From contig QFXI01000017.1 of NCBI GenBank assembly GCA_003402315.1, positions 1-64,000 of the forward strand: DNA of 64,000 nt. The letters are read 5' to 3'. Each line of letters opens with the position of its first letter. Within the stretch, counting starts at the first letter, position 1. Below are positions 53,674 through 59,594 of the stretch, piece after piece. The stretch is from Candidatus Nitrotoga sp. LAW. Its GTDB lineage: Bacteria > Pseudomonadota > Gammaproteobacteria > Burkholderiales > Gallionellaceae. A program made the position numbers and the translations under genes. The notes beneath the pieces are model-generated. The model worked only from the letters and a program-made list of their open reading frames with translations, searched no databases and was not told the DNA's origin.

Positions 53674-54171
53674 ATGCTGCGATTTCTTCTCATTTTCCTA
53701 CTGATTTTAGGTAGTTTGTTCGCACTGGAACTCACCCCGCCTGGTCAAGCTTTGGTGCATCCGTGGGCTGCATCACTGGCTAGTTTCAGCGCTTCCCTCA
53801 TTACCCTGTTCGACCCAAAGGTTATTACTTACGGTAATGTTATCCAAAGCCAATCCAATGGCTTCGGAGTCGCCATTGAGGCCGGGTGTAACGCGGTCGA
53901 AGCCTGTATTGTCCTGGCGGCGGCCATCCTCGCTTTCCCCGCGCCCTGGCGGCATAAATTGCTCGGTCTCATAATAGGTATGATTGCCGTACAAGTAGCC
54001 AATATCCTGCGCATTATCAGTCTCTTCTATTTGGGGCAATGGCGCATGGACGCTTTTGAATTCGCCCACCTCTATCTGTGGCAAGGGCTTATCATGCTGG
54101 ACGTGCTGGTGGTGTGGCTGATCTGGATACGCGCCATACCGGTTCAAAACCCTGCCCGCCATGACGCGTAA
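53674..54171 (+). CDS. xrtH: Exosortase H
   Basis: A 165-aa membrane protein, short as typical for XrtH. Catalytic residues of the exosortase/archaeosortase superfamily are present: Cys72 in EAGCNAVEA, Arg113 in NILRIISLFYLG, and His132 in FAHLYLWQG. XrtH processes surface proteins with an IPTLxxWG-type C-terminal sorting signal. No such substrate is found in this window. The ATG follows AGGATAAATATAC. It overlaps the next gene by 11 bases. Confidence 0.85.
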   Translation: MLRFLLIFLLILGSLFALELTPPGQALVHPWAASLASFSASLITLFDPKVITYGNVIQSQSNGFGVAIEAGCNAVEACIVLAAAILAFPAPWRHKLLGLIIGMIAVQVANILRIISLFYLGQWRMDAFEFAHLYLWQGLIMLDVLVVWLIWIRAIPVQNPARHDA

Positions 54172-54760
54172 TCCCCTATACAAATTTTTGTTGAAGGCCG
54201 CCCTCTGGCTGCCTGTATGCTTAGGGTTCTGGTACTGGAAGGCGGAATGGTTCAACGGCCCTGCCGTCATGCTATCGGGTTGGATTATGCAATCACTATT
54301 TCCCAGCTGGATAGAGTCGGTGGAGTGGTCACAACGCATCCTCAGTGTCGCTACCACCCTGAAACTTGGTACGGCTCCTGGAATGCCAGCGGGAGAATAT
54401 GCCTTAGTGCTGGAGGTAAATCCACTAACCTATAGCTTCGGATTGCCGCTATTTGTCGCCTTATTCCTCGCTGGCAGTGAAACAATCCGCTGGCATAAGC
54501 TGGCGCTAGGCACAATACTATTGATACCATTCCAAACGTGGGGAATCTGTTTCGATCTTCTTAAACAAGTTGCAGTTACCGCAGGGCCAACCGTATCAGA
54601 ACAAACCGGTTTCTCTACCTGGAAGATTGAGGGGATTGCTCTAGGCTACCAGCTTGGGACGCTTATTCTTCCTGCCTTGGCTCCAATTGGACTGTGGTTG
54701 GCGTTCAATTCCCGCTTTATTCCGATGCTGGTGCTGGAAGGGGCACTACGGAAGCTTTAA
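54161..54760 (+). CDS. Exosortase H-associated membrane protein
   Basis: A 199-aa protein with four or five hydrophobic segments (residues 8-24, 95-115, 120-140, 165-190) and a soluble loop between. It overlaps xrtH by 11 bases, and this fixed pairing is known for XrtH loci. It probably assists or anchors the sorting enzyme in the inner membrane; no catalytic motif is seen. The gene ends the short operon. Confidence 0.7.
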   Translation: MTRNPLYKFLLKAALWLPVCLGFWYWKAEWFNGPAVMLSGWIMQSLFPSWIESVEWSQRILSVATTLKLGTAPGMPAGEYALVLEVNPLTYSFGLPLFVALFLAGSETIRWHKLALGTILLIPFQTWGICFDLLKQVAVTAGPTVSEQTGFSTWKIEGIALGYQLGTLILPALAPIGLWLAFNSRFIPMLVLEGALRKL

Positions 54761-55009
54761 TCCATCAAAGTTTGGTTGTTCTCCACTCGTTGAACGGAGT
54801 AGCTCCCTTTCCCCTTTGGTAGCCAATCTAAACTAGCATCCCAAACTCGTTTGAAGTGATGCTGGGAGAGCGTTTCAAGAACTGTCCAATTCCCCTAAAT
54901 CCAAATATTTCCCATATTAACCAGTTCGATTACACTGCCTATCCTCTTTTTCCACCAGCAAGGGATGTGTCCTGTCTCTGCTAAAATCCTCTCACCTCCC
55001 ACACATTAC
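54761..55009. other. Pyrimidine-rich intergenic stretch
   Basis: About 250 bases between the exosortase pair and the first MITE, rich in C and T on the plus strand. No gene, tRNA or clear hairpin is seen. It may hold the original recJ promoter, now separated from recJ by the MITE. Confidence 0.4.
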
Positions 55010-55013
55010 TAAA

Positions 55014-55154
55014 GGGCACCTCTAAAAATTAAGAGTTCTAAACAAGACTAGGCGCGAATAAAAAATGTTGACGCAGCATATAATTGATATGTAAGGAAAC
55101 ATTTTTTATGAGCAACAACGTATTGTGACAAAATCTGAATTTTTAGAGGTGCCC
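55014..55154 (+). mobile_element. MITE, copy 1 (141 bp)
   Basis: The element starts GGGCACCTCTAAAAATT and ends with its exact reverse complement, a 17-bp perfect terminal inverted repeat. It is flanked by the 4-base direct repeat TAAA (55010-55013 and 55155-55158), the mark of transposition. Inside, AAAAATGTT and AAACATTTTT pair, so the whole element can fold as a long hairpin. It encodes nothing. The same 141-bp element lies at 58204-58344 with about 93 percent identity (10 differences over 143 aligned bases, counted by eye). Its right end is 8 bases from the recJ ATG. Confidence 0.9.
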
Positions 55155-55162
55155 TAAACCGC

Positions 55163-56860
55163 ATGATACAAATAAGGCAACGTTCTTACCCAACCGATAC
55201 TGCGCAACAGCTTATCAACTCTGGTATCACACCCCTTTTAGCACGTGTTTACGCAGCGCGCGGCATTGGTAATGTGACGCAATTGGATACCAGCCTGCAA
55301 TATCTACTGCCCTTCACGCAACTAAAAAATGCACAAAAAATGGCGGGTTTATTGGCTGATGCCATCGCCACACAACGCAAGCTGTTAATCGTGGCAGATT
55401 ATGATGCCGATGGCGCGACCGCCTGTGCTGTAGGGCTGCGTGGCCTGCGTATATTGGGTGCGCAAGTGGATTTCATCGTGCCTAATCGATTTGAATATGG
55501 CTACGGCTTGACGCCGGAGATCGTGCGCTTGGCGGCGCAATCCACTCCCGACATATTAATCACCGTCGACAATGGCATCGCCAGTGTGGAAGGTGTGGCC
55601 GAGGCCAACCGATTGGGTATGCAAGTATTGGTCACCGACCACCATCTGCCTGGCGAGGCTTTGCCGGATGCGCTTTGCATTGTCAATCCAAACCAACCAG
55701 GCTGCAATTTTCCCAGCAAAAATCTAGCAGGGGTTGGTGTCATGTTCTATGTGTTACTCGCATTGCGCGCCGAACTGCGGGTTCGCGGCGTATACACAGA
55801 ACAAGCAGAACCCAATCTAGGCAAACTACTCGATCTGGTTGCCTTGGGAACAGTTGCAGATGTTGTAAAACTAGATGAAAACAACCGTATTTTGGTACAA
55901 CAAGGACTACAGCGCATCCGCGCCATGCGCGCATGTTGCGGCATCAACGCTTTGTTGCAGGTAGCCGGTAAAAATTATGCGCAGGTTTCCAGTTATGAAT
56001 TGGGCTTTGTCGTGGGGCCACGGCTGAATGCGGCTGGACGGCTGGAAGATATGAGCCTGGGTATCACCTGTTTGATTAGCGATGATGTTACTGAAGCCGC
56101 CAAAATCGCGGCGCAACTTGATACACTAAACCATACGCGGCGCAACATAGAAGCTGACATGCAGCAAGCGGCGCTGGCCACGCTGGAACACATCACTCCG
56201 ACGGACAGTTGCAGCCTCTCATTGTTCGACGAAACTTGGCACCAAGGTGTTATCGGCATTCTCGCTTCACGCCTGAAAGACCGCTATCATCGTCCCGTCA
56301 TCGCTTTTGCACGATCCTTAAATGGTGAAATAAAAGGCTCTGGGCGCAGCATCCACGCCCTGCATCTGCGCGATGCACTTGACCTGGTGTCCAAACGCCA
56401 TCCGCATCTACTGCAAAAATTCGGTGGCCATGCCATGGCGGCAGGCCTTAGCCTGCGCGAGGAGCATTTCAATGAATTTAAGGCCGCCTTTGAAGCTGTA
56501 GCCCAAAGCCTACTTTCCCCAGCCGATCTTACCAAGATTATTGAAACAGATGGCCTACTCGCACCCTCCGAATTCACATTAAGCATTGCACGCAGCCTGG
56601 AACAGCAGGTTTGGGGACAAGGTTTCCCGCAACCCTTCTTTGAAGGTGAGTTCACCGTAAAAAGCCAGCGCATAGTTGGCGAAAAACATCTCAAACTAAA
56701 ACTCACGACGTCAAACGACGCACATGATGCCATTCATTTTTTTTGCGTTGACCCCATGCCTGCCTACATTCGTGCGGTTTTCAATCTAGCTATCAATGAA
56801 TACAATGGCAACGTCAGCTTGCAGCTCATCGTCCGGCACTGGCAAAATGCAGATGTTTAA
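55163..56860 (+). CDS. recJ: Single-stranded-DNA-specific exonuclease RecJ
   Basis: A 565-aa 5'-3' exonuclease of the DHH family working in recombination and mismatch repair. Motif I is DYDADGATA at residues 79-87 and motif III DHHLPGE at residues 159-165; the DHHA1 end with GSGRSIHALHLRDAL and FGGHAMAAGLSL is complete. The start is ATG 55163. The 5' flank was replaced by the MITE, whose end AGAGGT is the only Shine-Dalgarno-like sequence, 12 bases from the ATG, a long spacing. It is otherwise normal in length. Confidence 0.95.
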   Translation: MIQIRQRSYPTDTAQQLINSGITPLLARVYAARGIGNVTQLDTSLQYLLPFTQLKNAQKMAGLLADAIATQRKLLIVADYDADGATACAVGLRGLRILGAQVDFIVPNRFEYGYGLTPEIVRLAAQSTPDILITVDNGIASVEGVAEANRLGMQVLVTDHHLPGEALPDALCIVNPNQPGCNFPSKNLAGVGVMFYVLLALRAELRVRGVYTEQAEPNLGKLLDLVALGTVADVVKLDENNRILVQQGLQRIRAMRACCGINALLQVAGKNYAQVSSYELGFVVGPRLNAAGRLEDMSLGITCLISDDVTEAAKIAAQLDTLNHTRRNIEADMQQAALATLEHITPTDSCSLSLFDETWHQGVIGILASRLKDRYHRPVIAFARSLNGEIKGSGRSIHALHLRDALDLVSKRHPHLLQKFGGHAMAAGLSLREEHFNEFKAAFEAVAQSLLSPADLTKIIETDGLLAPSEFTLSIARSLEQQVWGQGFPQPFFEGEFTVKSQRIVGEKHLKLKLTTSNDAHDAIHFFCVDPMPAYIRAVFNLAINEYNGNVSLQLIVRHWQNADV

Positions 56861-56941
56861 AGCCGCGACAGATCGTTTGCTTAAAATCTGAAATGCCGGT
56901 AAATCACGCTTCGTTTAACTTACTATTAAGGCAGCCAAGCG

Positions 56942-58204
56942 ATGAACCATCAAATTTGGCAAAACAACGGTATTGATGTTCTGCCGCAGTTCCTCGCCAG
57001 CCTCGCCATCGGCCTACTGATCGGTCTGGAGCGTGAGCGCAGGCCTTCGTCCAAAGCCGGACTAAGAACCTTTGCGCTGGTTGCGCTCATGGGTACTCTC
57101 GCCGCCATGCTTTCCAGCAAAATTGGCTCACCATGGCTACTGGTTACAGGTTTTTGCGTCGTGGGCGTGATGATCATTGCAGCCTATCTCACCAGTCCCA
57201 CCGAAGAAAATGATCCGGGCACCACCACGGTTGCCGCTTTACTGCTGTGTTATGCACTCGGCGCACTAATTTGGTATGAACAAACAACATTGGCCGTCAT
57301 GCTAGCCATAATCACTACTACCCTGCTCTACTTCAAACCCGAGCTACGTGGCATAACGAAACGTTTGACGCGCCGTGACCTAGTTTCCATCCTACAATTT
57401 TTGGTACTAACCTTCGTCATCCTGCCAATCTTGCCGAATCAGAACTACGGCCCTTATGACACATTTAATCCGCATCAGATCTGGATGATGGTAGTACTGA
57501 TTTCTGGGCTAAGCCTGACTGGTTATGTCGCTCTGCACTGGACGAGCCAACGCTATGGCGCACCATTGCTAGGCTTGCTCGGTGGATTGGTATCCAGCAC
57601 CGCAACTACATTGGTTTACGCACGCCACGGTAAAATCAGTGAAGTCATGGCACGTGTATCCGCTGTGGTTATTCTGCTTTCCAGCCAAGTCGTACTGATG
57701 CGCTTGACAGTGCTAAGTGCGGTCGTATCACCCAACTTGCTCGCCAAACTATTGCCAGTGATGGGACTCGGCCTCTTGTTTGGACTGATCGTTACCCTTT
57801 TCAACTGGCGCAAATTACATACCTCTTCAAATTTACCCATGCCAAAAACTTCCAACCCGACCGAGATCCTGACCGCCCTGAGCTTCGGCCTACTCTATGC
57901 AGTAGTACTATTTTTTTCTGCCTGGATTTCGGATATTGCCGGTAGCGGCGGTCTGTATGTGGTCGCACTGATCTCCGGGCTCACCGATGTGGATGCAATC
58001 ACACTTTCCAGTCTGCGTTTGTTTGATTTGAATAAATTAAGCGATGATCAGGCAGTAATAGCCATTTCCCTCGCTTTCTTGTCCAATATGATATTCAAAT
58101 TTGGGCTAGTAGTATTTATCGGCGGCACAACCTTGGCAAAGCATGTTGCGGCAGGTTTTTTGGCAATGGGAGTGGGCGTTGCGGTTGGACTGATTATACT
58201 TTAG
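56942..58204 (+). CDS. MgtC/SapB and DUF4010 membrane protein
   Basis: A 420-aa protein with about twelve membrane helices. The N-terminal MgtC-like part has SLAIGLLIGLERERR (residues 20-34) and GLRTFALVALMGTLAA; the C-terminal two-thirds is DUF4010 with SGLSLTGYVALHW and GGLVSSTATTLVYAR. Function is unknown; MgtC relatives affect Mg2+ or acid stress. The last base of its TAG stop is the first base of MITE copy 2, but the insertion left the reading frame end unchanged. Confidence 0.85.
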   Translation: MNHQIWQNNGIDVLPQFLASLAIGLLIGLERERRPSSKAGLRTFALVALMGTLAAMLSSKIGSPWLLVTGFCVVGVMIIAAYLTSPTEENDPGTTTVAALLLCYALGALIWYEQTTLAVMLAIITTTLLYFKPELRGITKRLTRRDLVSILQFLVLTFVILPILPNQNYGPYDTFNPHQIWMMVVLISGLSLTGYVALHWTSQRYGAPLLGLLGGLVSSTATTLVYARHGKISEVMARVSAVVILLSSQVVLMRLTVLSAVVSPNLLAKLLPVMGLGLLFGLIVTLFNWRKLHTSSNLPMPKTSNPTEILTALSFGLLYAVVLFFSAWISDIAGSGGLYVVALISGLTDVDAITLSSLRLFDLNKLSDDQAVIAISLAFLSNMIFKFGLVVFIGGTTLAKHVAAGFLAMGVGVAVGLIIL

Positions 58205-58344
58205 GGCATTTCTAAAAATTCAGAGTTCTAAACAAAACTAGGCGCGAATAAAAAATGTTGACGCAGCATATAATTGATATGAAAGGAAACATTTCTTGTG
58301 AACAACAACGTATTGTGACGATATCTGAATTTTTAGAGGTGCCC
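58204..58344 (+). mobile_element. MITE, copy 2 (141 bp)
   Basis: Same element as at 55014-55154, same orientation, with direct repeats TTTA (58200-58203 and 58345-58348). This is the reverse complement of the TAAA flanking copy 1, so both entered the same 4-base target. The left end has two C-to-T changes (GGGCATTTCTAAAAATT) against the perfect right end AATTTTTAGAGGTGCCC. It lies between the MgtC-like gene and prfB. Confidence 0.9.
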
Positions 58345-58454
58345 TTTAGTTGAATGAATTAATTGACTTGCATAAACGACTGCCAGCACATAATCGCGCA
58401 GAATATGCACTGCCTCAATAACAACCTCGTTAAACTCAGGACTGGGCTTTCAGC

Positions 58455-58460
58455 TATAAT
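58455..58460 (+). promoter_or_regulatory. Candidate -10 box of prfB
   Basis: A perfect TATAAT lies 29 bases before the prfB ATG, in the context CAGCTATAATCGC. A good -35 hexamer is not obvious at 17 bases, so the promoter is tentative. It is beyond the MITE, so prfB expression does not depend on the insertion. Confidence 0.4.
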
Positions 58461-58489
58461 CGCTGCCTTTTCCGCACTTGACACTACAA

Positions 58490-59594
58490 ATGGAAGCCGA
58501 ACAACTCAACGCCCTCGCCCACCAGTTACAAGATCTCCGTGTTCGTATCACTGAGCTACGGAGGTATCTTTGACTTCGATGGCAAACAAGAGCGACTGGC
58601 CGAAGTCGTAATCCTCGCCGAAGACCCTGCCATCTGGCAGGACAACAAGCGCTCCCAAGAACTGGGGCGTGAGCGCAAGATGCTGGAAGGCATCGTTCTG
58701 ACCTTGAATCAGCTCAATCAAGAGCTTGATGATACAGCCGAGCTATTTGAAATGGCGCAGGCGGAAAATGACGATGCCAGCCTCGATAGCATCGTGCAAG
58801 ATGTGCAAAAAATGGAAAAGAAAGTGGCGGACATGGAATTTCGCCGCATGTTTTCCAAGCCCATGGATTCCAATAACTGCTTCCTCGATATCCAGGCGGG
58901 CTCTGGTGGTACCGAAGCGCAAGACTGGGCTTCGATGCTGCTGCGCATGTACCTGCGATACTGCGAAAAGAAAGGCTTCCAGGTGGAAATACTGGAGCAA
59001 TCCGATGGCGAAGTGGCTGGCATAAAAGGGGCCGTACTCAAGGTGATTGGTGACTATGCCCATGGCCATTTGCGCACTGAAACTGGCGTACACCGACTGG
59101 TGCGCAAGTCCCCGTTCGACTCCGGGAACCGCCGCCACACCTCATTTTCCAGCGTATTTGTCTATCCTGAGGTAGATGAATCCATCGAAATCGAAATCAA
59201 TCCGGCAGACCTGCGCGTAGATACCTATCGCGCAAGCGGTGCGGGCGGACAGCACATCAACAAGACCGATTCAGCGGTGCGCATCACCCACGCGCCCACC
59301 GGCATTGTTGTGCAATGCCAGAGCGACCGCTCGCAACACCGCAATCGCGCCGAAGCGATGGCAATGTTGAAATCGCGTATGTATGAAGCCGAATTGCGCA
59401 AACGCAATGCCGAAAAAAAGGAAATGGAAGATGGGAAAACCGACATCGGCTGGGGACATCAAATCCGCTCTTACGTTCTGGACCAATCGCGCATCAAGGA
59501 TCTACGCACCAATGTAGAAATAGGCAATACTCAGGGTGTGCTGGACGGCGACCTGGATGAATTTATTAGTGCCAGTTTAAAGCAAGCGGTGTAA
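58490..59594 (+). CDS. prfB: Peptide chain release factor 2, with programmed +1 frameshift
   Basis: Release factor 2 of 367 aa reading UGA and UAA stops. It starts at ATG 58490 ([14 protein letters not shown]), runs 27 codons to an in-frame TGA at 58571-58573, and continues in the +1 frame from GAC at 58572. The anticodon-like SPF motif is in RKSPFDSGN and GGQ is at residues 252-254 ([15 protein letters not shown]). Length and numbering agree with E. coli RF2 (365 aa, GGQ 250-252). A gene finder that ignores the frameshift would start it falsely at 58539. Confidence 0.95.
58560..58574 (+). promoter_or_regulatory. prfB autoregulatory frameshift site
   Basis: GGAGG, three bases, CTT TGA C: an internal Shine-Dalgarno-like sequence just before a CTT codon and TGA stop, the standard layout for RF2 self-control. 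When RF2 is scarce, ribosomes pause at TGA and slip +1 to read GAC. Confidence 0.93.

Follow-up and report, generated by a model that had tools for sequence, protein, structure and literature searches.

Two copies of a probable IS5-type miniature element in Candidatus Nitrotoga, and a hairpin that may be maintained on one strand

Miniature inverted-repeat transposable elements (MITEs), their derivation from insertion sequences (ISs) and the folding of their transcripts are already known (PMC10969869, PMC5896051). The subject here is a pair of 141-bp elements in Candidatus Nitrotoga sp. LAW, situated in a window of 64,000 nucleotides, by which is meant the whole stretch of DNA analyzed (contig QFXI01000017.1, positions 1 to 64,000). 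Both copies are very probably a non-autonomous IS5-type MITE, moved in trans by a partner that has since decayed or was left unassembled. No published description of this family appeared among the matches listed, which came mostly from the open-access literature. QMITE2 of Coxiella burnetii is similar in its length of 150–190 bp, its large and small versions, its internal palindrome and its intergenic position (PMC5896051), and a folded transcript is predicted for it in a review (PMC10969869). QMITE2 has direct repeats of 7–11 nt and a GTAG repetitive extragenic palindrome (REP) (PMC5896051), whereas the family here has 4-bp duplications and an insert without GTAG. Correia elements of Neisseria are likewise short MITEs, and their transcripts fold into hairpins that RNase III cuts (PMC10969869). 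With IS5-family MITEs, the elements share 17-bp ends, a 4-bp AT-rich duplication, an intergenic position, the lack of a gene and the presence of matching IS5 elements in relatives; they differ in an interior that shares nothing with the six IS elements compared. Correia elements have other ends and a TA duplication, unlike this family, and REP elements are marked by a GTAG or GGAG head and a partner REP-associated tyrosine transposase; GTAG occurs in none of the 33 listed inserts of the long form of the element.

The MITE assignment is supported by inverted ends, 4-bp TWWA duplications, many copies, clean empty sites, and IS5 elements with matching ends. The parts of the two copies are as follows.

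55014..55154, + strand: MITE copy 1, 141-bp form (sequence read, genome matches)
58204..58344, + strand: MITE copy 2, 141-bp form, in the same orientation as copy 1 (sequence read, genome matches)
55010..55013, no strand: left target duplication of copy 1, TAAA (a single TAAA in the empty site of genome G017)
55155..55158, no strand: right target duplication of copy 1, TAAA
55014..55030, + strand: left terminal inverted repeat of copy 1, GGGCACCTCTAAAAATT, 0 mismatches
55138..55154, − strand: right terminal inverted repeat of copy 1, the identical 17 bases, 0 mismatches
58200..58203, no strand: left target duplication of copy 2, TTTA (a single TTTA in the empty site of G017)
58345..58348, no strand: right target duplication of copy 2, TTTA
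58204..58220, + strand: left terminal inverted repeat of copy 2, GGGCATTTCTAAAAATT, 2 mismatches
58328..58344, − strand: right terminal inverted repeat of copy 2, perfect

Much of what the initial annotation had read from the letters is borne out, namely two 141-bp MITEs of equal length at 55014–55154 and 58204–58344, their identity of about 93% (131 of 141 bases), the 4-bp duplications (TAAA on both sides of copy 1, TTTA on both sides of copy 2), the folding of each copy as one long hairpin, and the absence of a gene, 141 bp being too short for any frame of the 80-aa open reading frame list. Its “perfect ends” hold for three of the four ends when these are set against GGGCACCTCTAAAAATT; the left end of copy 2 carries two changes, which are mismatches to its own right end. 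The statement that both copies start with CTCTAAAAATT was mistaken, copy 2 starting with GGGCATTTCTAAAAATT instead. With up to three mismatches allowed, the 17-bp end has four matches in the window against 0.25 expected, a count that none of 100 shuffles attained.

A close relative documents the insertion at both places. Queried with the flanks of each element joined by one copy of the duplication, genome G017 proved cleanly empty at both loci, having one TAAA at the first and one TTTA at the second. The 4.2-kb region was matched in all 19 genomes of the genus search, in some via the MITE only, and the copy-1 site aligned without the element in 12 of 18 other genomes (G017 and eleven more), several with diverged target bases. 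Over the scanned loci, a perfect 4-bp duplication flanks 63 of 95 distinct elements. These 63 clean duplications yield the target consensus TWWA, with T and A at its ends at 87%, and with C before and G after at 44%. Only 6 of the 63 lie inside simple open reading frame calls of the restored site, compared with 40.8 expected from nearby TWWA sites. No preference for gene orientation was found, 27 elements lying with and 23 against co-directional neighbors.

Elements also appear to have been lost, and to leave a countable mark. At the copy-2 site, genome G003 has TTTA-GAGGTGCCC-TTTA, in which two copies of TTTA enclose the final nine bases of the right end. Nine of 150 family genomes hold the corresponding pattern, VTTTAGAGGTGCCCTTTA, with 11 occurrences in all, one of them in this genome; the reversed control was not found at all.

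L244:1502-1518 and ten more loci among L242-L252: TTTA-GAGGTGCCC-TTTA left behind by lost elements

The inverted end itself carries TAAA after nine bases, and a 9-bp remnant is exactly what is expected, because this end-internal TAAA can delete against the far TAAA duplication; the remnants would have arisen by such deletions. The search covered the TTTA and TTAA types only, and the TTAA version of the remnant was met once in the 150 genomes; among the 63 perfect duplications, 11 are TTAA and 21 TAAA or TTTA.

The two copies belong to a sizeable family. A search of the whole assembly (2.8 Mb) gave 57 matches, some of which merely repeat a copy on the reverse strand or represent one of its ends. 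The copy count is a lower bound, 40 of 46 candidates having been scored. At least 24 copies have two ends (at most four mismatches per end, 120–200 bp), 14 of the 24 with a perfect 4-bp duplication, and further copies are broken at one end. They come in two forms, one of about 141 bp and one of about 180 bp that has an insert of about 39 bp (GACGGGTTAAGCAGGCAATCCCCGAAGGGGATGCTCGC) ahead of the right end. The 141-bp query also found matches in 66 of 149 related genomes and in 57 of 85 genomes of a second genus of the same order. Named N. communis copies sit among those of this second genus in a tree of the elements, which makes Nitrosomonas its probable identity. That tree holds 78 of 95 elements (17 without a core match were dropped), has few columns, and leaves 35 of 74 inner branches open. 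In it, copies of the second genus adjoin the main Nitrotoga subfamily, while other Gallionellaceae copies form a separate group together with five Nitrotoga rows and two from this genome. Transfer of the MITE between nitrifiers is a possible reading of this topology. Two genomes of the second genus, G244 and G226, had 392 and 172 first-look MITE candidates, with 10 scored in each.

Candidates for the partner are at hand in the same genus and family, in the form of IS5-family elements of about 1.3 kb with matching ends (0–3 mismatches) and 4-bp duplications. They emerged from a scan of 30 transposase loci of the family search together with nine earlier loci. Genome G008 has two such loci, 1320 and 1321 bp long, with TTAA duplications at both, and one of these copies has an open 364-aa frame. 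Its transposase is of the IS5 family, scoring 285 bits with NF033581 (the IS5_4 model, cut-off 140) and matching DDE_Tnp_1 and DUF772. The G060 locus measures 1316 bp and has a TGAA duplication. The remaining loci have weaker ends or unequal flanks, as in G012 with two mismatches per end and flanks TAAA and ATTA. Farther afield, RUG109, a member of the Clostridiales that also carries exact-end MITEs, has an IS of 1231 bp with ends GGTAACC/GGTCACC and ATAA duplications, and a second IS element with unequal flanks. Any match at all to the G008 transposase was found in four of the seven genomes of exact-end MITE loci. In this genome, C30:330-1420 is a broken IS5-type relative that has in-frame stops and a similar left end after TTAA; its right end was looked for and not found. 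Ten DDE_Tnp_1 matches exist here, some in open frames, and only at C30 is an end within four mismatches nearby. An IS relative in G001 (L127) at first seemed to share subterminal homology; its matching end lies about 390 bp past the transposase frame, and a decayed MITE is the more likely identity.

Pieced together from these sequences, the transposase of a related IS5 element would have bound the MITE ends in trans, the MITE would have inserted at a 4-bp target in intergenic DNA, and the partner in this lineage would since have decayed or be absent from the assembly, some copies later being lost, partly by TAAA–TAAA deletion that leaves the 9-bp remnant. Several points weigh against this account. 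No intact relative of the G008 transposase was found in this assembly, the other matches being short or broken. When four MITE copies were compared by blastn with six IS elements, only 15–19 end bases aligned, and stray matches besides the ends were 11–12 bases long (E 0.16–0.42). Since the six have nothing but terminal bases in common with the MITE, none can be named as its source, and an origin of the MITE interior by deletion from an IS was not seen among them; the putative relation lies in the ends and the duplication only. Two of the three related IS elements that have perfect duplications are flawed in their frames (the second G008 locus, with a stop in its frame, and G060, with a short transposase frame of 285 aa). 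Lastly, the single TTAA remnant is left unexplained by TAAA microhomology. The initial annotation had proposed recent movement and had looked to empty sites, to further copies in this and related genomes, and to an insertion sequence with matching ends; all three were found, the last with TTAA, TGAA or ATAA duplications. Recent movement itself stands relative to the close relative with empty sites, not as present activity, there being no intact related transposase here.

The ends reach much farther than the interior. A scan of genome contigs for exact ends returned 28 stretches, in taxa including Clostridiales (RUG109), Rickettsiales, Fibrobacteres, Moraxellaceae, Burkholderiales and one gammaproteobacterial metagenome-assembled genome (MAG); a perfect 4-bp duplication flanks 21 of the 29 exact-end elements extracted. 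Fifteen exact-end elements were judged by k-mer scores to share the present interior, nine of them in Nitrotoga records. Loci L138-L165 combine exact 17-bp ends with unrelated interiors in MAGs assigned to Clostridiales, Rickettsiales, Fibrobacteres, Burkholderiales and Gammaproteobacteria. An interior common across phyla was rejected: under global alignment, eight elements from Clostridiales, Rickettsiales, Gammaproteobacteria, Moraxellaceae, Burkholderiales and Fibrobacteres score at most 1.3 standard deviations (sd) from shuffles, and four from Sideroxydans, Gallionellaceae and N. communis, whose interiors are related, score 13–19 sd above them. Because the same ends enclose unrelated interiors in other phyla, they belong, on sequence grounds, to a widespread transposase type. 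Some of the elements with unrelated interiors are strongly quasi-palindromic (Gammaproteobacteria, z −10.4; Rickettsiales, −6.0; Fibrobacteres, −4.5), and others lack a strong fold on the strand given (Clostridiales L139, z −0.7; Burkholderiales L144, −0.2).

Inverted ends are at least one reason why bacterial MITEs fold, and they account for much of the hairpin seen in a single copy. Predicted energies are −52.4 kcal/mol for copy 1 and −47.2 kcal/mol for copy 2, with z-scores of −9.9 and −7.9 on the + strand and −8.7 and −6.0 on the − strand. Once the outer 18 bases are trimmed from each side, z drops to −3.3 for copy 1, −0.9 for copy 2 and −0.1 for a Gallionellaceae copy (L098); the single-copy signal therefore comes mostly from the inverted ends. 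The paired positions of many copies allow a test for selection, and there one strand stands out. In an alignment of 65 short-form elements (of the 78 in the tree, 66 are below 150 bp, and one of these was omitted as a long-form deletion product), RNAalifold predicts 42 pairs, with 97.4% of cells paired. Fifteen pairs have changed on both sides, compared with 9.1 in shuffles. Double-change cells number 130; shuffles give 35.2, and slid partners reach 15 at most. Related sequences can surpass shuffles even where there is no structure, and the comparison with slid partners favors a structure derived from the same alignment. Double changes occur in the ends, where four Gallionellaceae copies, for instance, have gone from G-C to C-G, and also in the inner stem (columns 60-62 with 92-94).

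The long-form insert, present in 18 of 20 loci fetched for it, has a covariation of its own. Across 31 of the 33 listed inserts, 4 of 11 pairs have changed on both sides, in 14 cells against 4.3 shuffled; further pair types did not exceed the shuffles (170 of 500). As an observation in its own right, the insert (L008:1614-1662, L254-L273) is a hairpin between a near-constant TAAGCAGGCAA and TGCTCGC, with a stem that covaries between the two genera. This module had no exact match in viral contigs and four weak plasmid matches (E 0.9), and plasmid blastn with the element gave no match.

Along the palindrome diagonals, single-arm changes from a Watson–Crick pair, read on the + strand, produce G-T 73 times and A-C 32 times (p = 8e-5). 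The figures are 48 and 19 in the outer helix (p = 5e-4), 14 and 5 on inner branches alone (p = 0.06), and 67–73 and 31–33 under alternative rootings and tie rules. Taking the inner diagonals from the + fold may have introduced a bias; the outer helix is present in the predictions for both strands. At unpaired positions, the same base changes lean the opposite way, 46 versus 91, giving rate ratios of 1.98 for paired and 0.45 for unpaired positions (Fisher p = 1e-7). The copies of this genome contribute 16 G-T and 12 A-C changes, and all other branches 57 and 20, a difference that is not significant (p = 0.15). The outcome depends on which pairs are chosen. Counted by pair set, G-T and A-C cells number 149 and 23 for + strand pairs, 31 and 102 for − strand pairs, and 149 and 117 for their union; with G-U forbidden, they number 18 and 3 for pairs on both strands, and 18 and 6 for pairs on either strand. 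The mean single-sequence energy is −53.0 on the + strand and −41.2 on the − strand, the + strand being lower in 64 of 65 sequences, which are related to one another.

These counts suggest, as evidence of moderate weight, selection on a one-strand fold, be it of RNA or of single-stranded DNA. For the structured-RNA transcript that the initial annotation had thought possible, the double changes and the strand bias favor a conserved one-strand fold, in which the hairpin is apparently kept by paired changes; no Rfam family was matched, and no promoter-like site was found in the elements, all three such sites lying outside them. A wider proposal is offered only tentatively. On this view, the MITE lineage would carry a fold under selection on one strand, either a mobile structured RNA or single-stranded DNA, to which a covarying module (GGGKTAAGCAGGCAA...TGCTCGC) can be added; it would be kept in Nitrotoga and in the second genus, probably Nitrosomonas, and would aid the spread of the element, not the host. 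As a guess, the folded transcript or single-stranded DNA would help the element persist or move. If true, the one-strand bias would amount to a natural test of whether either aids the spread of a MITE.

The pair changes might instead have come about without selection on the fold, an explanation we regard as rather unlikely. Template switching of DNA in quasi-palindromes, or arm-to-arm correction, makes hairpin arms match without selection, and double changes are found in the transposase-bound ends too, where recognition of both ends by one enzyme suffices. Neither process predicts a single-arm G-T bias on one strand (73 versus 32), nor the opposite bias at unpaired positions.

Far less probable is a role of the element as a portable ribosome-binding site or as a stop-codon specialist, an idea prompted by its outward ends, which carry GAGGTG, by insertion after TA, which restores TAG, and by the two neighboring genes.

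55163..56860, + strand: recJ (DHH, DHHA1, RecJ_OB), its ATG 8 bp past the end of copy 1
56942..58204, + strand: gene for an MgtC/DUF4010 protein, the last base of its TAG stop being the first base of copy 2

The MgtC/DUF4010 stop codon is TAG both with and without copy 2. In an uncontrolled count, 24 of the 95 elements have a stop nearby and 23 have a start. Measured against TWWA sites of the same stretches, there is no clear excess, with 12 of 54 within 15 bp of a stop (8.7 expected, sd 2.2) and 6 of 54 within 15 bp of a start (6.9 expected, sd 2.0), and either preference was rejected.

The weakest contender, a conserved structured RNA gene that is repeated and not mobile, could appeal to the strong hairpin, the double changes in pairs and the G-T strand bias, but is hardly credible and, as a whole explanation, is refuted by the clean empty sites in the close relative. 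Also against it are the 4-bp duplications at distinct sites for 63 of the 95 elements, the ends common to IS5 elements, and the lack of any Rfam match (up to E 1 for 54700-58700 of the window, and for five loci with long forms). The MITE reading is retained.

Elsewhere in the window, an exosortase-like gene (PF09721) is followed by one for a 199-aa protein without a Pfam match at E 0.001, both within 53674-54760. Downstream of copy 2 lies a prfB-like gene (58490-59594), in which the frame from the ATG at 58490 reaches CTT TGA C within GGAGGTATCTTTGAC (58560-58574), with PCRF and RF-1 domains downstream in the frame listed from 58539. This CTT TGA C site resembles the known programmed frameshift of release factor 2.

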